A DNA stretch of 64,000 bases from a bacterium (GTDB lineage: Bacteria; Vulcanimicrobiota; JABDET01): the NCBI GenBank assembly GCA_021800275.1, contig JAJYZB010000006.1, positions 62,001-126,000 on the forward strand, given 5' to 3'. Position 1 is the stretch's first letter; every line of letters starts with the position of its first letter. A model generated the notes under the pieces. The model worked only from the letters and a program-made list of their open reading frames with translations, ran no database searches and was not told where the DNA came from. This document shows positions 612 through 16,022 of this stretch, in pieces. A program made the translations under genes and the position numbers.

Positions 612-661
612 AGAAGCCCTTCTTGGGAAGGGCTTCTCTAATTCTGTCACAGTGTTTTTTT
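609..661 (+). terminator. Hairpin terminator of the thiolase gene
   Basis: A perfect 14-bp stem with a 4-base loop (609-640) starts on the thiolase stop codon. A run of eight T follows at 653-660, about 12 bases beyond the stem. The long stem supports termination; the offset T-run makes efficiency uncertain. The convergent gene on the other strand ends at 661. Confidence 0.6.
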
Positions 662-2562
662 TACCGTTTAATCGCTTTTTCAAGAGCTCCTAGACCTGCT
701 GCCATAGCGGCTGAGGTTTTAATGCTGTTCCACCACATGATTGGTTTTCCTTCTCTCATGGTATGACATCTCTGGCAGTAAGGGATATTAGGATTGTCTT
801 TATAAGCCCACATTTGCCCTTTGACTCTTCCCATCAGAAAATCTTTTAAAGTGGCTTGATTGGGCCACCAGATATGATTGGGGTTGTGGTCCTTAACAGA
901 GTAAATGGAGTTGCAGGGGGAAGGTATCCGATCACAAATATGAGGGGGATTATTTAAGTTTTTAATCAGAATATCACCTGTCATCGCATGATAAGCGCTC
1001 CAGGACAAACCAGGAACTCTGCCAGGAGGAGGAACAACAGCAGAAGGGGGAACTGCTTTAAGAATATACACCACATTGGCGATCAGATTGAATTCGCTGG
1101 CAAGAACTCGGGAATCTTTATGAATTTTCTGCAGATCACTTGAAGCGCTTCCTAAAAGAGAAGAGAGTTGGCTTTTACTGGAAGGCGCAGGATGGAGCTG
1201 CTGCACAATTTGCTGAAAATTTTGATCTGTGGATTTGATATTTTTCATCTTTTGATCCCAGACAGAAAATTTCTGAGTGAAAAGGGAAGTCATATAAAGT
1301 TCTCGGAGTTGACTTTTAAGTCTAAACATGGTTGAATTGAGAGTATTGAGTCTCTGAGGCAGCAGCCCACCTAATTTATAAATTTTATAGGTTAATAGTT
1401 TTAACATATTGGGACCATAATGAGAAAGATTATTCGCTGTTTGTTGGGTTGAGCCGGATAGAGCTGCTGTAAAGGAGAGAAGATTTTCATGGAGAGAGGC
1501 AGCAGTTGAAGCAGTTTGAAAAGTAGAGCGAAGTTCATCTTTAATGGCAGCGATTCTTGAAGGGGGAAGGAAAGCTAACTGGATCGGCTTTTTAGCCACC
1601 GGTTTTTTCTTGATGATGGGTTTGTGTTTAATAGCCACTTTGACAGGCTTATGAGTAATGGGTTTTGGTTTAATAACCACCGGTTTTTTCTTCACTGAAA
1701 CTTTGATAGGTTTTGGGGAAACCTTTACAGGTTTATGGACCGGTTTGAGTTTTACAGCCACTTTCTGTTCTGCAATCCATTTTTTAGCAAAAGTTTCCGT
1801 TTTTCTGTTTCTGTCAAACCAGTAGAAGCCGACCCCTTTTCTGGCAGGATGACATCTCAAACAGTAAGGGACCCGAATGGTATTTTTATAAGGGAACTGC
1901 TGTCCTTTCACTTTTCCTAAAAGAAGATCTAAAAGAGAGGCTCGATCAGGCCAAACAGTATGGGCGGGGTTAGTGTCTTTTCGAGAGTAAGCAGGCCGCG
2001 CAGGAGGTACAAATGCCAGAGGAACTGGATGATGCACTCCGTTTTTCACAATATCTAACACATCATTGATGACCATAAAATTGATGACCATGGCATTGGT
2101 TATTTTATGCAGCTGCCAGGCAGCTGAAGAGGTTAAAGCATGATTCGCTTTTTTGAATTCTTTTTTGAAAGCAGCAGTATGTTTTTTCCATAAATGAAGT
2201 CGTCCTTTAAAAATGGGATAAAACCCTAAGGCTGCAACTTCTTTTTCAAATTCAGTCATGGCTGCATGAAGAGAACGGCTGAGAGCAGGCAGATGGCGAA
2301 AAATCTGCTGCGCTCGTTTAGATTTAGGGGTTCTGTTAAGTATGTGCGCTAACATCAAGGTTTTTCTAAACAACTGCAGCTGATTTCGAGTTATTTTTCG
2401 AGCTGATTTTAAAAGGGCTCTTTCTCCTTTTCTTTTCTGGAGTCTTGCTCTGGAATAAGAAGAAGCATGAGAAACTAGAATGAGAACTGTCAGAAGAGGG
2501 ATCACCAGGAGAGCAAACAGGAATATTATTTTTTTTCTAGATTTAACTTCAAATAACTTCAT
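661..2562 (-). CDS. Membrane-anchored diheme c-type cytochrome with Lys/Pro-rich tether
   Basis: 633 residues, no family recognised. An N-terminal transmembrane segment (about residues 11-31) is followed by a helical region and two homologous heme modules. Module 1 ends in YCLRCH (C234, C237, H238) and module 2 in YCQRCH (C596, C599, H600). Each CxxCH is preceded by a matching stretch: D-x-N-P-x-H, WP, L-x-D-x-L-x-G-x-V-K-G-Q. Between the modules, residues 271-326 are a strongly basic KP/KPV repeat tract that resembles the periplasm-spanning linker of TonB. Topology suggests inner-membrane anchoring with the hemes in the periplasm. It follows a DUF1848 gene by 4 bases and lies downstream of mtrA-mtrB-like genes, so a role in moving electrons to that conduit is inferred, not shown. 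Axial ligands beyond the CxxCH His are not evident. Confidence 0.7.
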   Translation of the reverse strand: MKLFEVKSRKKIIFLFALLVIPLLTVLILVSHASSYSRARLQKRKGERALLKSARKITRNQLQLFRKTLMLAHILNRTPKSKRAQQIFRHLPALSRSLHAAMTEFEKEVAALGFYPIFKGRLHLWKKHTAAFKKEFKKANHALTSSAAWQLHKITNAMVINFMVINDVLDIVKNGVHHPVPLAFVPPARPAYSRKDTNPAHTVWPDRASLLDLLLGKVKGQQFPYKNTIRVPYCLRCHPARKGVGFYWFDRNRKTETFAKKWIAEQKVAVKLKPVHKPVKVSPKPIKVSVKKKPVVIKPKPITHKPVKVAIKHKPIIKKKPVAKKPIQLAFLPPSRIAAIKDELRSTFQTASTAASLHENLLSFTAALSGSTQQTANNLSHYGPNMLKLLTYKIYKLGGLLPQRLNTLNSTMFRLKSQLRELYMTSLFTQKFSVWDQKMKNIKSTDQNFQQIVQQLHPAPSSKSQLSSLLGSASSDLQKIHKDSRVLASEFNLIANVVYILKAVPPSAVVPPPGRVPGLSWSAYHAMTGDILIKNLNNPPHICDRIPSPCNSIYSVKDHNPNHIWWPNQATLKDFLMGRVKGQMWAYKDNPNIPYCQRCHTMREGKPIMWWNSIKTSAAMAAGLGALEKAIKR

Positions 2563-2566
2563 TTTT

Positions 2567-3574
2567 TCACATCCTTTCTTTTAAATAACCTGCTGCGTTC
2601 TGATAAGCTGGATCATGTTTTGGGGTCCAGTCTTTTAAAAATCGAGCCGGGTCGGGAAGAGAGAGAGAAGATTTAAGGTGTTTTCTTTTTCTTTCCAGAG
2701 CAAGCTCTCTGTTTTCTGTCGCAAAACAGTAAACACAGCCGTGAAGACAGGTGTCATAACTTCCAATATCAATCATTTCACTGCAGGCGCAGGAAACTTC
2801 TCGCCCATGGTTCTGCTCTGCATACGTAGAGACAATGGGAGCCGCCGCAGCAGGCAGGGGAAGATGTTTTTCTCCACCTTCTAAACAAGAAGCTGATTCA
2901 ATGATAAAAGAGGAAGAATCAGATGCAGATGGGGAAGCGTACTCTATTCTTGAAGAGATCAACCTGATATTGGCTTGATTCGCGATCCATTTCAATGAGA
3001 GCAGAAAAGTCTTCAATTCTTCTTCATGAAGTTTTAAAGGAAGAGATGGAAGTTTGGAAGCGCTGGTTTCAGATTCATAAACTCCAAAATCAAAAAAACA
3101 TTTGTAAGTATATCCGCTTAAAGCCTGCGCAATTTTAGCAAATTGTTCTAAAATAAATGATGGCGGGGTTTTCTCCGTAAAGACAATGGGATCAAATCTC
3201 CAGTGAACCTGATGAATGGAAGTGCGAAGAGCCAGTTCTTTAAACGTTTTTAAACTGGTTTCCAGAGATTGAACACAGGGCTCAAATTCTGTGGGCAGCC
3301 CTGTAATGGTATAATGGAAATCCGCATGGAAATTATTTTTCCCCAGAAATTCAACGCATTTGAAAAAAGGCTGGTAATTTCTAGACCAGAAAAGGAATCT
3401 ATCCACATCGTCTTTGCGAAGAGATACAAGAGTCGAAGTTCCTGTATAAGGATCCCAAACTTTAACTTTCCCTTCTTTCAGTCTTTCATAAAACCAGGGA
3501 GAATAAAAACCAGGGATATCGGTCCTCATACTGGCTGAAACAATCTTGTGTTTTTTCAAACAACTTTCTTCCAT
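2567..3574 (-). CDS. DUF1848 family protein with CX3CX2C motif
   Basis: 335 residues, recognised as DUF1848 from the N-terminal VSASMRTDIPGFYSPWF, the WDPYTG stretch and HWRFDPI. Near the C terminus, C276-LHG-C280-VY-C283 has the CX3CX2C spacing of radical-SAM [4Fe-4S] sites, as in spore photoproduct lyase-like enzymes; C262 and C264 lie just before it. The substrate is unknown. Residues 211-247 look like a low-complexity Ser/Ala insertion. It begins after GAAGAGGAG, 31 bases beyond the mtrB terminator hairpin, and its stop is 4 bases from the diheme-cytochrome start. The two are therefore probably co-expressed, possibly by readthrough from mtrAB, and a role in cofactor or protein modification for the cytochromes is only a guess. 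Confidence 0.8.
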   Translation of the reverse strand: MEESCLKKHKIVSASMRTDIPGFYSPWFYERLKEGKVKVWDPYTGTSTLVSLRKDDVDRFLFWSRNYQPFFKCVEFLGKNNFHADFHYTITGLPTEFEPCVQSLETSLKTFKELALRTSIHQVHWRFDPIVFTEKTPPSFILEQFAKIAQALSGYTYKCFFDFGVYESETSASKLPSLPLKLHEEELKTFLLSLKWIANQANIRLISSRIEYASPSASDSSSFIIESASCLEGGEKHLPLPAAAAPIVSTYAEQNHGREVSCACSEMIDIGSYDTCLHGCVYCFATENRELALERKRKHLKSSLSLPDPARFLKDWTPKHDPAYQNAAGYLKERM

Positions 3575-3605
3575 TTTATATTCTCCTCTTCAAAGTTCTT
3601 CTCTT

Positions 3606-3643
3606 CAAAAAATTATCCCCCACAAAGGGGGAATAATTTTTTG
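3606..3643 (-). terminator. Terminator after the mtrB-like gene
   Basis: On the minus strand a GC-core hairpin (CCCCC/GGGGG flanked by A/T pairs, loop of 5, one bulged base) ends in a T6 tract 22 bases after the mtrB-like stop. The next gene on the strand starts only 31 bases further, so incomplete termination would let it be transcribed at a reduced level. Confidence 0.65.
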
Positions 3644-3665
3644 AATTTAATCCATAAAACCGATC

Positions 3666-6500
3666 TTAAAATGAAAGGGAATAATAAACTGACTCAGACC
3701 AGACATGACCATTCATCAGGTTGGGAGAATAAACATAAGAATTGAATCCACCTGGAGAAGTAATATACCCTGATGGACAGGCAGGAAGAGGCATTGGGGC
3801 AGAGGCTCCACATTCTGCCGCAATATCAGGAACATTGTTTGAAAACTCATTATACTGAACCGTCAATCCTAAAGAAGCATTTTTCTGGAGCATTCTTTTG
3901 ACATTTAGAGCATAATCATTCTCATTTCCATCAATTCTAGTCATGACTTGAAGATTTGGGAGATCATTGTAAAAGTTAGCAGGAATATTGATATAGCCAA
4001 CCCCTGGGACAAAACTAAGGGCGGGACTGGAAAGATATGGATTCTGAAAAGTCTGGGGCCTTGAATGAGTGTAATTAACCCCTAGATTCCAGTTTTTCCC
4101 TGGAGTCCAGTTAATTCCAGCGTAAATTTCCTGATCTTGAATATTGACTTGATCAATTAAATTATCAGGAACCCCTCCTAGAACAGAACTAGAAGTAACA
4201 GCCCACTGTGCCCACGGCTCAAAAAGCCCAACCCAGAAAGCTGATCCAACTGCTGGAAGACAAGAAGTCGGACTTGGGGCTCCTATACAGGTAGGAAAAG
4301 GAACAGCATAATTCACTGCTTCTGTATCATAAACAGGAGAAACTGACTGCTCCTTATTGATCGTATTGGTGTACCCTGCAAAAAGGGAGAAAGCGCTGGA
4401 AGGGATATAGTTCGCATTAAAACTTAAAGTGCTGGTATTGTCAGAATAAGGATATACCCAACTGGAGTTCGTTTTATCCGCTTCATTCGTATAAGAAAGG
4501 CTCATAAAAACTTGAGAATTCGGACTGTAATTCAAATTCCCATAATATTTCCAGTTATCCATAGGATCTGTTCTGAGCCAGGCATTGTTCGCAAATCTCC
4601 GAAGCACACTGAGGCGATAAGTTAACCCACTGAGAATTGGGCCCCCGATCTTTGCCTGCCAGCGGTATTGATCAAAGGAAAGGGACTCTAGTCCAACAGG
4701 CATTCCAACTGGCCAGCCGGTTGGAGTCATCCCTGTTAAAGCATTGTAGGCTGCAAAAGGATTAAATCCTCCAGCAGGTCCTGCTTCCCCAACAGGATAA
4801 TATCCAGGGACAGTTGGAGGGACATTCACAAACCCATAAACAGGATAAGTAATGGTATTGGTGCCGCAGCCGATCAAAGCTGCTAAACCAGCAGGGAACC
4901 CTGCAGAATTACAGGGAGAAATTAAAATTGGAATAACCTCTGTTGGACCAGCAGCTCCATTAGGAGTATAGGTTACCACATAGCCATTCGAAACTGCTGT
5001 TCCTAATTGATCTCCCTGGAGAGCTGTATTCACAAGAGGATTGAAAGCTGTAAAAATTCGAAGATCATAATAATCTAAGAGCTGGGAATCAGTTTCATGT
5101 TCCCAGCCACCTGATAAGCTGAGGTACTGATTCCCAAAAATTAAATCATACCCAGCAATTAAATTTTCGTCTTTTCTGTGCATGGCATCTAAAATACTAG
5201 AATCAGGAGTTTCATCCCAGTAATCATAATCTAAATAACCATGCCCTGCCTGGCGAAAATTAAAATTAAAAGTTCCTCTCACCTCTTCATTGGTGTATTG
5301 AGGAGAAAGATTCGTAGGGGGCTGCTCAGCAGAAAGCATTGGAGGAACATAAGGAAAAGAAATCGCATCCTGAGTGCCGTAGCTGAAAATCCCTGCGGAT
5401 CGTTTATTCCACTGTTTCCAGTATCCTGAAATTGAATAATTGCTGCTGAATGGAATTCTTAATCCTGCTTGATTTTCACTCCAAAAGGTATCTGCAGCAG
5501 TAGTGGGTAAATCTTCTGATTCAGCACTAAATCCATTGGCAGGAGAAGGGGTTATTCCTGCGGGTCCAGAAGCTGCCAGAAGGTTTGCTTCAGTATAACC
5601 CACCTGTTTATTATCCCAACTGGTAGAAGTGGTGGCAGCATATCCCTGAACAAGGCTGTCTGTATAATTCACTCCAACAGTAGTTCGGGAAAGATTGTTG
5701 TCTCTTCCTACCATTCCATTCCAGTCCCCTGCTGCTGATCCTAAATAATATCCCTGGAGTCCAGTCTGGCTTCTCAAAACATTGGAAAGATAAAACCCAA
5801 GTCCGGAATTTTCAGTATATCGAAGAGAATTTACAATATAATCATCCAGTCTTGGATAATAAGGAAAATTTTGGATATACCCGGGGAGGTACCAGGCTCC
5901 AAGTGGAGCCACAAAAGACCCAGAAGGATACCCAAATAAAGGGGAAAAATCAGCCAACTCTGGATTTGGATCAAATCCATAAAAAACATCTCGATTTAAA
6001 ATTTTCGCGTATCTCAAATTATAAGTCAGATTAGGATCCTGATACCTGACCCTTAACGCTTTATGGAAATCATCTTCATTCATGGCATATCCATTAAAAA
6101 CCCCTCCTGATTTAAGGCGGGCGCCGAACCGCAAACTGTTAATATAAAATCCGTTTTCTAAAGGAGCATAGGGATCTTCTACTGCTGGATTTCCAGAGAT
6201 CGAATTCACATTAAAAGATTCATTGATGCTCACCCCAGGAATTCCTGTTACAAGAGCCGCTAAAAGGGCATTAAAACTGGAGGTTCCGATCCCCCAATTC
6301 GGATCTTTCGCTAATCCTGGAATCCCAAATCCATAGTTTGGATTAATAGGCTGAATAGGGGGAAGTACCTGCGGCTGATAAACCGGACCCCCAGCGGCAG
6401 CAAAACTGGCGAGCGGCAGCGCCAGAATTGAGCTTAGAAAAGCGCACAGAGTCAAGATTCGAGCTAACTTTTGAGTCATTTTTTTGATCATCCTTTTCAT
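3666..6500 (-). CDS. mtrB: MtrB/PioB-like outer-membrane beta-barrel
   Basis: 944 residues with a Sec signal peptide (MKRMIKKMTQ, hydrophobic core to about residue 30, ASFAAA cleavage region). The rest alternates aromatic and polar residues typical of a large beta-barrel, is rich in Tyr/Asn/Gly, and ends in YYSLSF with a terminal Phe, as expected for outer-membrane assembly. It lies 13 bases after a decaheme cytochrome gene, the arrangement of mtrAB/pioAB electron conduits, in which the barrel sheathes the decaheme protein across the outer membrane. ATG at 6500 is chosen because AAAGGGGGGG sits just upstream; an in-frame start at 6545 would overlap the decaheme gene and spoil the signal peptide. 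No N-terminal CxxC, as found in Shewanella MtrB, is seen. A generic porin is the alternative. Confidence 0.75.
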   Translation of the reverse strand: MKRMIKKMTQKLARILTLCAFLSSILALPLASFAAAGGPVYQPQVLPPIQPINPNYGFGIPGLAKDPNWGIGTSSFNALLAALVTGIPGVSINESFNVNSISGNPAVEDPYAPLENGFYINSLRFGARLKSGGVFNGYAMNEDDFHKALRVRYQDPNLTYNLRYAKILNRDVFYGFDPNPELADFSPLFGYPSGSFVAPLGAWYLPGYIQNFPYYPRLDDYIVNSLRYTENSGLGFYLSNVLRSQTGLQGYYLGSAAGDWNGMVGRDNNLSRTTVGVNYTDSLVQGYAATTSTSWDNKQVGYTEANLLAASGPAGITPSPANGFSAESEDLPTTAADTFWSENQAGLRIPFSSNYSISGYWKQWNKRSAGIFSYGTQDAISFPYVPPMLSAEQPPTNLSPQYTNEEVRGTFNFNFRQAGHGYLDYDYWDETPDSSILDAMHRKDENLIAGYDLIFGNQYLSLSGGWEHETDSQLLDYYDLRIFTAFNPLVNTALQGDQLGTAVSNGYVVTYTPNGAAGPTEVIPILISPCNSAGFPAGLAALIGCGTNTITYPVYGFVNVPPTVPGYYPVGEAGPAGGFNPFAAYNALTGMTPTGWPVGMPVGLESLSFDQYRWQAKIGGPILSGLTYRLSVLRRFANNAWLRTDPMDNWKYYGNLNYSPNSQVFMSLSYTNEADKTNSSWVYPYSDNTSTLSFNANYIPSSAFSLFAGYTNTINKEQSVSPVYDTEAVNYAVPFPTCIGAPSPTSCLPAVGSAFWVGLFEPWAQWAVTSSSVLGGVPDNLIDQVNIQDQEIYAGINWTPGKNWNLGVNYTHSRPQTFQNPYLSSPALSFVPGVGYINIPANFYNDLPNLQVMTRIDGNENDYALNVKRMLQKNASLGLTVQYNEFSNNVPDIAAECGASAPMPLPACPSGYITSPGGFNSYVYSPNLMNGHVWSESVYYSLSF

Positions 6501-6513
6501 GTTTTCCCCCCTT

Positions 6514-7461
6514 TTATGGTGTAAAGAAGTTTCTGCTGGTGTCACTGCCGTGAATTGCAGGATGGCAGGCAGAGCAGTCTTGAGCTGTTACAGACCACTG
6601 CAGCGAAGAACCTGTATGGCAGCGGATGCAGAGGGCTGGCTGCGGGAGTCTCCATAAAAATTCTTGGGGAGACCCGTGTGGACTGTGGCAGGCTAAACAC
6701 CCTGCAGTTGTGGAATGAGAGAAAACAAAAGGTCCTGCTTCAGCAGGATGGCAGGCTCCGCAGGATTCAACAGAACGCCTTGCTCCAAAAACCTGGGGGG
6801 CATTTTTCAACATGGTCAGTCTTGAACTAAAATGAGGTTTATGGCAGTCTGTGCAGGTCATTAACCCTTCATTGACTGGGTGGTGGGAAAATTCGTTAAA
6901 CTCTGCTTTTATTCTTAAGTGGCACTGATAGCAGACATCCCTTTCAACAGCGTATTTTAAAAGATACTTATTTTGAGTTGGGACCGCATGAAAACTGTGG
7001 CAGTTCAGACAGTCTAAATGGGCTCCTGCATGGAGAACAGACTGCCCTCTAAAATGGCAGGTCTCACAGAGAGCATTGATTTTAGCGGGGGGCCATGCTG
7101 CAATATTATTGATTTCAGTTGGAGCATTGTCAGCCACATGAAGACTGGCATTTCCATGGCAGTATTCACAGTGGGATGTTCCTTGAATCATGGAATGGAT
7201 GTTCATTTTCCATTCCTTGGGTGTTAACCCAAGTTTGTCGGCATCAACTGGCTGCGGGTGGCAGTTCCAGCAAGCTGAATTTCCAACCGGTTTTGCCCCA
7301 GGGATTAAAATCAGAGATTTTGCAATCTTTCCATTGTGATTAGGGGCAAACCCTGGATTCGTAGGGGTAATATACCCCGCATTTCCTTTCTTCCATAAAA
7401 ATAAGAGGCAGCACAATACTGCCGCCGCAAAAATAAGAAGCTTTTTACTTCTCCTCTCCAT
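6514..7461 (-). CDS. mtrA: Periplasmic decaheme c-type cytochrome, MtrA/PioA/DmsE type
   Basis: 315 residues with a signal peptide (hydrophobic core about residues 8-22) and exactly ten CxxCH motifs: CWNCH, CEYCH, CETCH, CLNCH, CYQCH, CTDCH, CGACH, CLACH, CIRCH and CSACH. Length and heme count match the MtrA/DmsE/PioA family, whose members carry electrons across the outer membrane inside an MtrB-type barrel, either outward to metals or electrodes or inward from Fe(II). The barrel gene follows directly. The start has a strong GGAGGTGG. Upstream lies a promoter with an FNR-like site. No outer-surface cytochrome of the MtrC/OmcA type lies in the window, so the conduit may be the two-part Pio type or may use a distant partner; direction of electron flow cannot be read from sequence. 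Confidence 0.9.
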   Translation of the reverse strand: MERRSKKLLIFAAAVLCCLLFLWKKGNAGYITPTNPGFAPNHNGKIAKSLILIPGAKPVGNSACWNCHPQPVDADKLGLTPKEWKMNIHSMIQGTSHCEYCHGNASLHVADNAPTEINNIAAWPPAKINALCETCHFRGQSVLHAGAHLDCLNCHSFHAVPTQNKYLLKYAVERDVCYQCHLRIKAEFNEFSHHPVNEGLMTCTDCHKPHFSSRLTMLKNAPQVFGARRSVESCGACHPAEAGPFVFSHSTTAGCLACHSPHGSPQEFLWRLPQPALCIRCHTGSSLQWSVTAQDCSACHPAIHGSDTSRNFFTP

Positions 7462-7602
7462 GAACCACCTCCAGGTTAAACTTTAATGATTTATATTTTT
7501 GTTTTATGCGACAATACTACTTAACTATGCATATCCCCTTCTAAGTGAGTGTGGAGCTGCTGCGAAAAAAGTTAAGTAATACAAAGTGCCACGACAAAAA
7601 TC

Positions 7603-7644
7603 ATATTAACATGAAAGAAAAACTTCTGCAATGATCTGGATCAT
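7603..7644 (-). promoter_or_regulatory. Putative promoter with FNR/CRP-type site for mtrAB
   Basis: The 300-base gap between the BNR gene and mtrA holds, on the minus strand, TTGCAG (7626-7631), a 17-base spacer and TAATAT (7603-7608). The palindrome ATGATCCAGATCAT (7631-7644) abuts the -35 element and carries the TGAT-N4-ATCA core of FNR-family sites. Counting from a start 7 bases beyond the -10, its centre falls at -41.5, the classic class II activator position. The leader would be about 135 bases. No regulator gene is in the window, so FNR-type control is inference. Confidence 0.5.
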
Positions 7645-7761
7645 GTATTTAGATTGTTGTGCTAAATTAGGTGTGAATCAGCTTAAATTATTTATGAAAG
7701 TTTTTCTCGTCTTTGGAAGGGTGGCGCTGGAATGTTTTCAGAGTTTCAAGAATTATTCAGG

Positions 7762-8955
7762 TTAGGAGTGTTTTGGTTGAACAGGAGCATTGGGAAAAAA
7801 GGCGGCTTTTATGGAAAATATTTTAGGGAGATGACTGAATAGTTCTATCCAATGGTTCCCTTTATCCATGCTGGCAAAAAGGGATCCCCCTGTGGTGCCA
7901 AAAAATAGGTGGGACGGGTTTGACCCATTGATCCACAGTCCTTCCCTCAATATTTTGACGTAAGCTGGATAAGGTAGTCCGTGAGAAAGCTCTTTCCAGG
8001 TTTTTCCTCCGTTTTTCGTGCGATAGACCGCCAGTTTTCCTTTTGGAGCCGTTCGCATTTCCGGGCTTTCATGGGGAATGACGTAAACTTCATCTGGATT
8101 TTCAAGATGAGAGGTAAGAGTAAATCCATATCGGCTTGGAAGCCCTTGATCAATAGGCATCCATTTTGAGTCCTCTGAATCCCTTCTCCATACTCCTAGA
8201 TGATTTTGTTGATATAATCTTCCTGTTTTTCCTCCCGCAAAAATTAATTTGTGGACACAGGATGTTCTGGGATCGGATGGGATTCCATCATTTGTCGTTT
8301 TCCAGGTTTTCCCACGGTTGAATGTTTCAAAAACTCCTGCTGCTGAGATTCCAACAATAAGATGGTTTGGATTTCTTGGATCCACAAGAATTGAATGCAG
8401 ACAAAGCCCGCCTCTGCAGGGTTTCCAGGAGCTTCTGGTCTCATGTTGAGTTAATCCTTTTATTTCATGCCACGTTTCTCCGCTGTCATCACTTCTGAAT
8501 AAAGCAGCTGGGGAGACTCCAGCATAAATAGAACCAGGATATTCTGGTGAATCGGGCTGCATTTGCCAAATTTCTTTTACGCATAATTTTATTTTTTTCG
8601 AAAAACGAGGAGAGTCTTTTGATTCCTGCCAGGTTTTTCCCAGATCACGGCTTCTAAAAATGGTCGGTCCCCAATGGCTGCTGCTGCCTCCTGCATAAAG
8701 GGTTTGGGGAATAGTTCTAGAGTCAAATGCAGAACAGAAAATATTGAATCCGGTTAGAAACGGCCCCTTTAAATCCCAATCTGGGAATTTTTTGGGAAAA
8801 GCCGCTGCAGAATCTGAGTCATGATAAAGTTTTTTGCCAGGAAGAGATTCTGCCACAAAAAGGCCTGACTCGGTTCCAATCAGTAAAATGCTGCTGGAAC
8901 TCAAAGGATTTTCTTTCTGCTGCTTATGTTGTTGTGGTCTATTCGTGAAAAACAA
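7762..8955 (-). CDS. BNR/sortilin-like beta-propeller protein
   Basis: 397 residues with at least five Asp-box/BNR repeats spread along the chain: SRDLGKTW, SDDSGETW, FNRGKTW, TKNGGKTW and SMDKGNHW. Such repeats form beta-propellers in sialidases, Ycf48-type assembly factors and many proteins of unknown role. No signal peptide or catalytic sialidase residues are evident, so no enzyme activity is claimed. The open frame begins at a TTG (8955) without a convincing Shine-Dalgarno; a downstream TTG or GTG start is possible and the first ~20 residues are uncertain. It ends 100 bases upstream of the mtrA promoter. Confidence 0.75.
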   Translation of the reverse strand: MFFTNRPQQHKQQKENPLSSSSILLIGTESGLFVAESLPGKKLYHDSDSAAAFPKKFPDWDLKGPFLTGFNIFCSAFDSRTIPQTLYAGGSSSHWGPTIFRSRDLGKTWQESKDSPRFSKKIKLCVKEIWQMQPDSPEYPGSIYAGVSPAALFRSDDSGETWHEIKGLTQHETRSSWKPCRGGLCLHSILVDPRNPNHLIVGISAAGVFETFNRGKTWKTTNDGIPSDPRTSCVHKLIFAGGKTGRLYQQNHLGVWRRDSEDSKWMPIDQGLPSRYGFTLTSHLENPDEVYVIPHESPEMRTAPKGKLAVYRTKNGGKTWKELSHGLPYPAYVKILREGLWINGSNPSHLFFGTTGGSLFASMDKGNHWIELFSHLPKIFSIKAAFFPNAPVQPKHS

Positions 8956-9213
8956 GTTCGATAATATTCAATATTTCCCTTGTAAATATTAGTATTTTTT
9001 TGTCTTTTTGGGAGCATTTTTTCCGCGGATAATCTCTATGAAGATTCGGCTTCCATATAATTCGAAAAATGAGAAAAAGGCAGCGGCAGGGCAAATTGCA
9101 GCTGGTATGGTACGAGGTGCGCGCTGCAGAAGGGATCAAAAAATTGATCCTTCACTTCGAAAAAAATCACCAGAATAAGAGGGATGAAACACTTTTAAAG
9201 TGAAAAATTGAGG

Positions 9214-11355
9214 ATGAAAATTGTTGGCAGAAATCTCCTTCGCAAAGAGGGGATGAAAAAGGTATCAGGGAAAGCCCAATATATTGATGATTTCTCTTTT
9301 CCGGGAATGATTTATGGGAGAACCATCCGTTCTTCCATTCCCTGTGGTGAGGTTGCAGCCATTGAATTTAAGTTTGACAAAAAGGGTTTTACTACTTTAG
9401 ATTATCGAGATATCCCTGGGAAGAATGTAGTTGCTCTGATTGAGGATGACCAACCCTGCCTGGTGGAAAAGAAGGTCCAACATCAGGAGGAGCCGATCCT
9501 TCTTCTGGCTCATCCGGATCGGGAAAAACTCCTTCAGGCAGAGGTGAAAATCTCATACAAACAGGAAACTCCCATTTTTGATTTCGAAAAGTCTCCTAAG
9601 GTTTTTAAAAAAATTTTGATTGAGAAAGGAGATCTTCAAGTCGGTTTTGCGGAGTCCGATTTAATTTTAGAAGGTGAGTATCGTACAGGCCATCAGGAAC
9701 ATCTTTATATTGAAACCAATGGAGTTATTGCCATTCCTGAAAATGGCGGAATCACTATTTATGGTTCAATGCAGTGCCCATATTATGTGCATAAAGCCTT
9801 GAAAGTTCTATTGAATTTGCCGGATGAAAAGGTGAGAGTTATTCATGTTGAAACAGGAGGGGCGTTTGGAGGGAAAGAGGAGTACCCTTCAATGATTGCC
9901 TGTCATGCCGCTCTTTTGGCAGTGAAATCAGGGAAGCCCGTTAAAATGATTTATGATCGAGCCGAAGATATGGCTGCAACAACTAAAAGGCATCCTGGCA
10001 TTATACGGCATAAAACTGGAGTTCGTAAGAATGGAGAACTTACTGCAGTGGAGATTGATTTTCTTCTGGATGGAGGGGCTTATGCGACTTTAAGCGCTGT
10101 GGTTTTATCTCGTGGAGCCATTCATGCTGCAGGTCCTTATTTTTGCGAAAACATTCAGATCACAGCCAGGGTTGTGATGACTAATACCCCTCCTAACGGC
10201 GCTTTTCGAGGTTTTGGAGCTCCTCAAACTCAGTTTGCCATGGAAAGTCAGATGGATCGAATGGCAGAAGCTCTTTCTCTAGATCCTGTCAAAATTCGAG
10301 AAAAAAATGTTCTTAAAAAAGGGCTGACAACAGCCACAGGTCAGGTGATGGAAGACGACTGCAGCGCTCTAACTGTTTTACAAGAGGCAGTTAAGAGATC
10401 AGACTATTATCGAAAGGTTCGCACATACAAAGGAACCAATAAAGGGATTGGCCTTTCTCTCGTTTTTCATGGTTCTGGTTTTACGGGGAGTGGGGAAGTC
10501 TATCTTGCTTCTAAGGCTGCATTGGAATTAACAAAAAATGGCGCGCGAATTCTTGTTTCCAGCACAGAGATCGGTCAGGGGACCAGAACCATGCTGGCGC
10601 AAATTGTGGCAGAAACTATGGGGATTCATTATGAGCAGGTTGAAGTGCAGGAAGCCGATACAAATTTGGTTCCTAACAGCGGTCCAACAGTTGCTTCTAG
10701 GACCTGCATGATCATTGGGAAACTGCTCCAAAGATGCGCTGAAGAGATGAGAGAAAAGTTAGGCAAGAAATCTCCGAAAGAGTATCTGAAAAAATATGGA
10801 CCTCTTGTGATTACAAAACAGTATGAAAAACCGCCGGAAATTGAGTGGGACGATGAACATTATCAAGGGGCTGCGTATGGAACTTATGGATATGAATGCA
10901 GTATTGCAGAAATAGAGGTCAATCCCATTATTTATGGGATCAGAGTGAATCGCGTCACCACTGCTGTAGATGTCGGGAAAGCGATTCATCCAATTTTGGC
11001 TAAAGGACAGATTGAAGGCGGCATGGTTCAGGGATTAGGTTATGCGCTGCTGGAGCAAGTGGAGATGAAAGATGGGAAAATGACAAACTCTCAGCTTACA
11101 AATTATATTATTCCAACGACTTGTGATACTCCAATTTTGGATGTCGTTCTTTTAGAAAAGTCTTATCGTCATGGACCTTTTGGGGCAAAAGGACTTGCAG
11201 AACTCCCCCTGGATGGCGCTGCTCCTGCTGTGGTCAATGCTTTAAGAATATTAGGACATGACATTAGGGAACTTCCAGCAGCCCCTGAAAGGGTTTTAGA
11301 GTCCCTTCTTTCAAGGTCGAATATTGATCAGCGCGCTCTGTCGATCGGCAGGTAA
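9214..11355 (+). CDS. Xanthine dehydrogenase/aldehyde oxidase-type molybdenum-binding subunit
   Basis: About 713 residues, clearly the large molybdopterin subunit of the xanthine oxidase family, which hydroxylates purines, aldehydes or aromatic acyl-CoAs. Signatures are GKAQYIDDF near the N terminus, GGAFGGKEEYPS, GAFRGFGAPQTQFAME, GQGTRTMLAQI, PNSGPTVASRT and the C-terminal GAKGLAELPLDGAAPAV, whose Glu is the expected catalytic residue. The family normally needs a 2Fe-2S subunit and often an FAD subunit; neither is adjacent, so this copy is orphaned. ATG 9214 is used; a TTG two codons earlier is the alternative and neither has a clean Shine-Dalgarno. Its stop lies 3 bases from that of the convergent helicase gene. 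Substrate unknown. Confidence 0.9.
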   Translation: MKIVGRNLLRKEGMKKVSGKAQYIDDFSFPGMIYGRTIRSSIPCGEVAAIEFKFDKKGFTTLDYRDIPGKNVVALIEDDQPCLVEKKVQHQEEPILLLAHPDREKLLQAEVKISYKQETPIFDFEKSPKVFKKILIEKGDLQVGFAESDLILEGEYRTGHQEHLYIETNGVIAIPENGGITIYGSMQCPYYVHKALKVLLNLPDEKVRVIHVETGGAFGGKEEYPSMIACHAALLAVKSGKPVKMIYDRAEDMAATTKRHPGIIRHKTGVRKNGELTAVEIDFLLDGGAYATLSAVVLSRGAIHAAGPYFCENIQITARVVMTNTPPNGAFRGFGAPQTQFAMESQMDRMAEALSLDPVKIREKNVLKKGLTTATGQVMEDDCSALTVLQEAVKRSDYYRKVRTYKGTNKGIGLSLVFHGSGFTGSGEVYLASKAALELTKNGARILVSSTEIGQGTRTMLAQIVAETMGIHYEQVEVQEADTNLVPNSGPTVASRTCMIIGKLLQRCAEEMREKLGKKSPKEYLKKYGPLVITKQYEKPPEIEWDDEHYQGAAYGTYGYECSIAEIEVNPIIYGIRVNRVTTAVDVGKAIHPILAKGQIEGGMVQGLGYALLEQVEMKDGKMTNSQLTNYIIPTTCDTPILDVVLLEKSYRHGPFGAKGLAELPLDGAAPAVVNALRILGHDIRELPAAPERVLESLLSRSNIDQRALSIGR

Positions 11356-14265: not shown

Positions 14266-14511
14266 TTATAGGAAAGCCAAAACTGCGGGAAGAACATCAG
14301 AGAGGATACCCCCAGCTCCAGCGGCAGCTCCCCCAGCTCCAGCGGCAGCTCCTGCTCCTCCTAACACGTCTCCTGCAACCCCAGCGACAGCCCCTAATCC
14401 AGGAAGCCCGGCTCCTCCTCCTCCTCCTCCTGATAGAAGCTGTAAAGGAGCTTCAGCTATTTGAGTAACACTACTGGTTAGACTTCCAACTATATTGGCG
14501 ATACCACCCAT
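14266..14511 (-). CDS. Glycine/alanine-rich small protein
   Basis: 81 residues with no recognised family. After MGGIANIVGSL comes a Gly6 run and an Ala/Gly tract (AGAAAGAGGAAAGAGG). No charged residue other than a single Asp or Glu here and there, no Cys and no clear signal peptide. Reality is supported by GGAGGTG eight bases before the ATG and a plausible promoter upstream. Its MGG start, low complexity and very strong Shine-Dalgarno resemble the 215-aa repeat protein at 30.6-31.3 kb, so both may belong to one class of abundant self-associating or secreted proteins. This is inference only. Confidence 0.6.
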   Translation of the reverse strand: MGGIANIVGSLTSSVTQIAEAPLQLLSGGGGGGAGLPGLGAVAGVAGDVLGGAGAAAGAGGAAAGAGGILSDVLPAVLAFL

Positions 14512-14547
14512 GACACACCTCCGTTGATAATTTTTTTTCTTTATGTC

Positions 14548-14575
14548 ATTATCCCTTGAAAAAAGAAACTGTCTA
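14548..14575 (-). promoter_or_regulatory. Putative sigma-70-type promoter of the glycine-rich gene
   Basis: On the minus strand TAGACA (14570-14575), a 16-base spacer and GATAAT (14548-14553) lie about 36 bases upstream of the ATG. Each element departs by one or two bases from consensus. Confidence 0.4.
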
Positions 14576-14771
14576 GTGACAAATGAGAGAATTTACAATC
14601 ATTTAACAGAAAGGCAGCGAGTTGTTTAAGTTTTGGGGTTCGAAGTGAGCGTAGAGCTTCCATGAGAAGGTAAAGGTCGTTTGGATGACCAGAGGCTGGC
14701 TCAGAAGGAGCACATTTTTGAGATGGAAAAGGAATAGAACAAATCTTAAACGAACTGACTTTATTGACAAT

Positions 14772-16022
14772 ATGTCGGATAAAAGAGTAGTGATTACAGG
14801 AATGGGGGGAGTGACCCCCATTGGAATAGGAAGAGAAGCCTTTTGGGAGAGCTTGATATCAGGCAGAAGCGGGATAGGTCCAATTACTGCTTTTGATGCC
14901 TCAAAATACCCATCTCGAATTGCCGGAGAAGTCAGAGATTTTGATCCTCTTCAGTATTTGTCAAAAAAAGAGGCGCGAAAAAACGATCGATTTGTCCAAT
15001 TTGCAATAGCGGCTTCAAAACTGGCTGTTGATGACGCAAAACTGACAATTGATGACAGCAACAGGTATGATGTTGGCGTTTTAATAGGTTCAGGAATTGG
15101 CGGCATCAATACGATTGAGGAGCAGCACAAAGTGCTGCTTCAGAATGGACCTGATCGAATGTCTCCATTCTTTATTCCTATGCTGATTACAAACATGGCA
15201 AGCGGGGTTGTTTCTATTTTGCTTGGAGCCAAAGGACCTAACAGTTGCGTTGTGACAGCCTGCGCCACTGGCTGCCATGCTGTCGGGGATGCATATCTGA
15301 TGATAAAAAGAGGAGATGCAAAAATGATGCTCGCGGGAGGAGCTGAGGCTGCGGTTGCTCCATTAGCGATTGGCGGATTTTCAGCCATGAAAGCTCTTTC
15401 CACAAGGAATAATGAGCCAGAAAAAGCTTCGAGGCCCTTTGATAAAACGCGGGATGGTTTTGTTCTGGCAGAAGGAGCAGGTATCCTTGTTCTTGAGGCT
15501 TTAGAGCACGCTTTAGAGCGTAAAGCAGCGATTTATGCCGAGGTTGTGGGATATGGGATGACTGCTGATGCTTATCATATTACAGCCCCTGATCCGGATG
15601 GCAGAGGAGCTTCTGATGCCATGATGAAAGCATTGTCCAGCGCAAAATTGAGACCTGAAGAGGTGGATTACATCAATGCCCATGGAACATCAACCGAGAT
15701 CAATGATAAAGTTGAAACAAAAGCCATAAAAGCGGTTTTTAAGGATTATGCTTACAAAGTAGCAGTCAGCTCTATTAAAAGCATGACAGGGCATGTTTTA
15801 GGGGCAACTGGAGCCCTTGAACTTATTGCCACTGCATTGACGATTAAACATGACATTATTCCCCCAACCATTAATTATGAGTACCCTGATCCTGAATGTG
15901 ATTTGGATTATGTCCCGAACAAGGCAAGAGAACAAAAAGTCAAGATTGGAATAAGCAATTCATTTGGGTTTGGTGGACATAATGCAGTGGTCGTGTTGAA
16001 GAAATTTAATGAAAATGGATAA
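14772..16022 (+). CDS. fabF: 3-oxoacyl-[acyl-carrier-protein] synthase II
   Basis: 416 residues from [12 protein letters not shown], the usual length for KAS II, which elongates acyl-ACP with malonyl-ACP in fatty-acid synthesis. The active-site Cys is in [11 protein letters not shown] (C164); the two His lie in [11 protein letters not shown] and [12 protein letters not shown]. The frame is open to an ATG at 14685 but the extra 29 residues look non-native, so 14772 is preferred although no clear Shine-Dalgarno precedes it. It overlaps rnc by 14 bases. The order fabF-rnc is common in bacteria, but acpP, which often precedes it, is absent here. Confidence 0.95.

Follow-up and report, generated by a model that had tools for sequence, protein, structure and literature searches.

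A predicted class II promoter of the CRP/FNR superfamily upstream of a decaheme cytochrome operon in an uncultured bacterial order

Is the palindrome that lies upstream of a decaheme cytochrome gene an operator and, if so, which protein would bind it and in response to which signal? A preliminary description of this locus, which lies in a 64,000-nucleotide stretch of bacterial DNA (the whole stretch is termed the window), had read the palindrome as a class II FNR/CRP activator site and predicted low-oxygen activation of the cytochrome conduit. Direct reading located the palindrome, the -35, the 17-base spacer and the -10 exactly where that description had placed them. The features of the locus are listed below.

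7632–7643, minus strand: palindrome TGATCCAGATCA with the core TGAT-N4-ATCA, by direct reading; predicted dimer site of the CRP/FNR superfamily
7631–7644, minus strand: extended palindrome ATGATC-CA-GATCAT, by direct reading
7626–7631, minus strand: weak -35, TTGCAG, by direct reading (TTGCAA in the congener)
7603–7611, minus strand: extended -10, consisting of TG (7610–7611), one base, and TAATAT (7603–7608); TGTTATCAT in the congener
About 7596, minus strand: predicted +1, placed from the -10 position, with a leader of about 134 bases to the ATG at 7461
6514–7461, minus strand: decaheme c-type cytochrome, MtrA/DmsE-like, with 10 CxxCH
3666–6500, minus strand: probable outer-membrane beta-barrel partner, judged from operon position, a signal-like start and a C-terminal Phe
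2567–3574, minus strand: DUF1848 protein, order kept in the congener
661–2562, minus strand: 633-aa protein with two CxxCH, order kept in the congener; likely operon end

On the minus strand, 5'-ATGATCCAGATCAT runs into TTGCAG, followed by the 17-base spacer and TAATAT. The last T of ATGATCCAGATCAT is the first T of the -35, and the palindrome abuts this hexamer. Given a start 7 bases past the -10, the palindrome centre (7637.5) falls at -41.5, the class II position claimed for it earlier, with the geometry read as far as the -10 and the +1 predicted. Against the sigma-70 consensus, TTGCAG scored 3/6 and TAATAT 4/6, both weak, and the TTGCAG/TAATAT pair was absent from the output of a promoter scan of the window; together, these findings suit an activator-dependent promoter. 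The locus thus combines what defines a class II CRP/FNR promoter: a dimer site, a centre at about -41.5 overlapping the -35 (geometry to the -10), and a regulator of the superfamily in the genome. A protein bound next to the -35 might instead repress by covering it, but the exact -41.5 register, the poor -35 and the extended -10 form an activator arrangement, and 19 of 23 FNR-activated Escherichia coli promoters with a known start have their site at -41.5 ± 4 (PMC3688515). We consider repression improbable.

The bare core gave little indication of function, since TGATN4ATCA occurred 3 times in the window against 1.89 expected (at least 3 in 26 of 100 shuffles), which is chance-like, and the two other sites (15566 and 38952) lay within coding sequence. 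That chance-level count is what a fortuitous palindrome would give, whereas the footprint, recurrence and register tests described below all disfavoured such an origin, which we regard as scarcely credible.

The comparison covered three genomes, the full set available for the family as for the order, namely the source genome (G000), its congener (G002) and G001, which is 67% complete. Family and order searches found the decaheme in 2 of these 3 genomes; the G002 ortholog is 89% identical in protein and belongs to the same genus. A scan of genome contigs for further decaheme relatives returned only the two loci of the congener (MAG YP4.bin17, JAKAVV), and a literature search on the name of that MAG gave no paper. 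In G002, a different gene lies upstream and no alignment is seen in the flanks; even so, 43 of 50 bases were kept across the site and core promoter, in a block running from 9 bases before the site through the end of the -10. Four neighbouring stretches gave 13/60, 17/51, 18/60 and 22/49 identities with G002, and other registers at most 24/50. Conservation of the palindrome in relatives, which the preliminary description had put forward as a check, was therefore confirmed in the congener.

The four-gene order (decaheme, barrel-like protein, DUF1848 protein, two-heme protein) was also common to G002. The decaheme scored 157.9 bits against TIGR03508, below the 192.2-bit cut-off, and matched PDB 6r2q_A (4.6e-27), a chain that bears an unrelated molecule name in an entry that we take to be MtrCAB. 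The 944-aa putative barrel, possibly an MtrB-like partner, had no Pfam or NCBIfam match, and its structure model was unusable (pLDDT 24.6). Both species have a second decaheme-porin operon (L048 in G000:C32:33000-48000, 4760–8637; L052 in G002:C28:180000-198000, 7357–11143), with a cytochrome 49–50% identical to the first. TGAT-N4-ATCA palindromes are present at its promoter in both species, as TGATCTATATCA in the source genome and as the pair TGTGATCTTTATCACATGATTTAAATCAT in G002. These palindromes, including the tandem pair, sit in a region from which an ABC-transporter operon also diverges. No conserved site was found at the third decaheme (L018/L019).

We then searched the three genomes with a pattern that was derived from the window and subsequently generalised. 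The exact form, TGATN4ATCATTG-N20-TAnnAT, occurred 3 times in G000, twice in G002 and once in G001. The reversed pattern gave 0 exact matches, a weak control because CTAG-like words are rare, and the full pattern gave 0 in a 13.1-Mb Markov-4 simulation with the composition of contigs C8 and C30. All 6 exact matches were intergenic, 23–218 bases upstream of a gene; the genes behind them encode the two decahemes, secreted proteins of one kind (two in the source genome, one in G002) and a G001 prepilin. The secreted proteins (L063 and L066; L071 in G002), which share the decaheme switch, carry PWVNTG and GPGGLG-like motifs; a family search of the three gave essentially no match, with a TIG domain in L066 only. 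Allowing one mismatch brought in the enoyl-CoA hydratase orthologs of both species; coxB and an ankyrin-repeat-like gene were added from G002 alone, and two of the new matches (L081, L088) fell within coding sequence. The switch at G002 coxB is not repeated at its homologue on C8 of the source genome (48% identical), near which TGATN4ATCA was absent. When the TTG was dropped and the -10 loosened, 18 exact matches were obtained (9, 7 and 2 in the three genomes), of which 13 were intergenic and oriented towards a gene, 3 were coding and 2 were of unclear placement.

The register was examined on C8 and C30, contigs of 436 kb in total (about 9% non-coding) that were chosen because matches lay there. 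Of 56 site-strand instances, 4 had TAnnAT at an offset of 23 bases past the site, and none of 79 other offsets had it more than once. On the same contigs, TGATN4ATCA was intergenic in 9 of 28 cases (P 4e-4) and RTGATN4ATCAY in 6 of 6 (P 4e-7), the latter grouping having been made after looking. Across the whole source genome, 5 of 11 ATGATN4ATCAT sites were intergenic (P 1.4e-3), one of the five being the site in the window. Among 14 promoters aligned from the same relaxed searches, the flanking bases were A..T in 8, G..C in 4, G..T in 1 and T..A in 1; the search pattern itself partly dictates the right-hand T but leaves the left base free. The functional mark, as predicted from these searches, is [A/G]TGAT-N4-ATCA[T/C] with a -10 at a constant spacing. 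Because the same switch, in the form ATGAT-N4-ATCAT or GTGAT-N4-ATCAC, precedes other genes in the genus, a regulon is suggested. Two further sites were noted. The core TGATCCAGATCA occurs 81 bases before a HesB/IscA-like gene (L006, G000:C8:206041), where it lacks the -41.5 promoter register, and ATGATATAAATCAT lies between divergent TonB-type receptor and fatty-acid desaturase-like genes (L076, G000:C28:132376).

The preliminary description had named the lack of an FNR-family regulator as evidence against its reading, but the genome does have candidates: it encodes five CRP/FNR-superfamily proteins over the PF13545 cut-off, besides one further cNMP-binding protein that is channel-like and not a regulator. 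If an FNR-type oxygen sensor bound here and turned the operon on when oxygen is scarce, this would explain the TGAT/ATCA half-sites and the -41.5 position, both of which E. coli FNR promoters share; FNR is also known to accept sites that match its box only in part (PMC3688515). However, FNR needs four Cys in its N-terminal region (PMC4505428), and an N-terminal CxxC (first 60 residues) was found in 0 of the 5 proteins here and 0 of 7 CRP/FNR proteins of the relatives; only L005 among the five has more than two Cys. The site matches 8 of the 10 specified FNR-box bases, but its outer bases are A..T, so that an A stands at the position where FNR boxes have T and CRP boxes have G. Canonical TTGATN4ATCAA boxes were intergenic in 1 of 10 cases in the source genome, no more than chance, and were rejected as a regulon; likewise, T..A flanks were seen in only 1 of the 14 aligned promoters, against 12 with A..T or G..C. 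Given the missing cysteine cluster, the chance-level boxes and the flanking A, the sequence supports neither FNR as the regulator nor low oxygen as the signal, and we judge FNR unlikely to bind here. The other half of the earlier claim, a class II site of the superfamily, stood, with the conservation in the congener and the same geometry elsewhere behind it. The switch would fit a CRP-type regulator better than FNR, and low-oxygen activation of the operon is possible.

L001, L003, L057 and L058 constitute the only CRP/FNR clade found in all three genomes (48–83% identity, L003 and L057 being 83% identical; G001 is the 67% complete member). The clade has the recognition helix ARETV[ST]R and the nucleotide pocket FGE..PRS. 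L001 and L003 consist of a cNMP-binding domain and a Crp HTH, and scored 99.6 and 77 bits against the PRK11753 CRP equivalog model, below its 266-bit cut-off. Their nearest solved CRP/FNR proteins were PDB 3d0s/3h3u and 4byy, which we take to be Mycobacterium CRP and Corynebacterium GlxR, respectively. When L003 was aligned to 3h3u, GE..PR[ST] and TN motifs were common to both; these are presumably signature residues of cyclic-nucleotide binding, and a literature search on the ligand residues of Rv3676 found no relevant paper. The three genomes encode 5, 6 and 2 class III cyclases, including a CHASE2 cyclase about 2.5 kb from L001. Two GTGAT-N4-ATCAC sites flank L001, and in a check for autoregulation the exact site was found upstream of L001 only among the five regulators. 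The shared clade, recognition helix, pocket, nearest structures, cyclases and GTGAT-N4-ATCAC sites at L001 together favour a CRP-type activator. The likeliest regulator would be the CRP-type L003/L057 or its relative L001, with their cyclic-nucleotide-binding signature, at what we would call even chances. A helix of the CRP-like R..E..R kind would be expected to prefer G to A ahead of TGAT, which leaves the link between this clade and the A..T sites insecure. Around L001, the CHASE2 cyclase, FecR-like proteins, a DUF6600 protein and the regulator itself are clustered (L140, G000:C30:1-20000, 1181–6400).

If the signal is a redox one, the best rival to the CRP-type proteins is the Cys-rich L005/L061, which might bind the site as a redox or Fe-S sensor. 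Its 8 Cys, with CxxC pairs at 126/129 and 225/228, are conserved between two species, the helix GCEPETILR retains the E and R that FNR carries, its PDB matches include FNR-type regulators, and in G002 its gene is situated upstream of the decaheme operon at a distance of 3.8 kb. Nevertheless, L005 is not adjacent to the operon in the source genome, the site is absent upstream of its own gene, and its ortholog was not found in G001 (67% complete), which holds one exact switch; we think this sensor an unlikely occupant, if slightly less so than FNR. L005 and L061 each have one of their two CxxC in a C-terminal extension and may represent a new redox sensor. A DNR/NnrR-like, NO-responsive regulator (L004/L059) seems a still poorer candidate than FNR or a repressor. 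A perfect site, TTGATCTAGATCAA, whose -10 lies at +23, does precede the hemerythrin-DUF2249 gene adjoining L004, but its flanks are T..A, which sets it apart from the other 13 promoters, and an L004 ortholog was not found in G001. This lone intergenic canonical FNR box may belong to a separate NO-type circuit. The TTGATCTAGATCAA site, the hemerythrin-DUF2249 gene and a membrane-protein gene lie beside L004 (L046, G000:C8:236500-256000, 14416–15180) as a possible NO-stress circuit.

Class II control by the CRP/FNR superfamily is, on the sequence, well supported at the decaheme promoter. The palindrome is quite probably the operator of a CRP/FNR-superfamily activator in a class II promoter that drives the four-gene operon, the regulator being likely of CRP type. 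From its sequence, geometry, conservation and recurrence we infer binding, activation rather than repression, a ligand and the extent of the operon. A ligand-bound dimer at -41.5 would overlap the poor -35, contact RNA polymerase and aid the start at the weak extended -10, and transcription would proceed from about 7596 through the decaheme, barrel, DUF1848 and two-heme genes. The signal would be cAMP or a similar nucleotide if the regulator is CRP-type, and anaerobiosis would act, if at all, by way of it.

More tentatively, and with some doubt on our part, a CRP-like cyclic-nucleotide regulon, marked by a box peculiar to it, [A/G]TGAT-N4-ATCA[T/C], might drive two decaheme-porin conduits, secreted proteins, enoyl-CoA hydratase and pilin genes. 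If true, electron export would be tied to nucleotide signalling, not to an FNR oxygen sensor, in an uncultured order of three known genomes, one MAG being the only named relative found for the lineage. A guess from one sequence has become a testable regulon and a search pattern for co-regulated genes, and the question moves from whether oxygen controls the operon to which CRP-type protein and ligand do so.

A literature search on CRP/FNR control of decaheme conduits gave nothing on this lineage among the papers listed, and comparison was made with systems known elsewhere. Mycobacterium CRP and Corynebacterium GlxR bind TGTGA-N6-TCACA, whereas the sites here are mostly ATGAT-N4-ATCAT. Class II promoters of E. 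coli FNR have the same TGAT/ATCA half-sites and a centre at -41.5, but their consensus flanks are T..A, and FNR carries a four-Cys Fe-S cluster that is absent from the five regulators here (PMC3688515, PMC4505428). In Shewanella oneidensis, omcA and mtrC are under CRP control from sites of class I, located at -61.5 and -60.5, and cAMP-CRP itself serves anaerobic respiration (PMC4417206). There, too, a CRP-family protein activates an Mtr-type conduit, with cAMP as the signal, but the class of site, the organism and the site sequence differ (PMC4417206). The nearest precedent, by analogy, is FixK at pioABC of Rhodopseudomonas palustris TIE-1, a CRP/FNR-superfamily class II promoter before a decaheme-porin conduit operon, in which the site is centred at -44.5 with a 177-base leader and measurements cover the start, the binding of FixK and induction under anaerobic conditions (PMC3050613). 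The box flanks and the regulator differ, and a second conduit operon, present here, is not discussed in the part of that paper drawn on (PMC3050613). The decaheme promoter described here is thus a further case, in a distant and poorly sampled order, of the known control of decaheme conduits by the CRP/FNR superfamily, and not a new kind.
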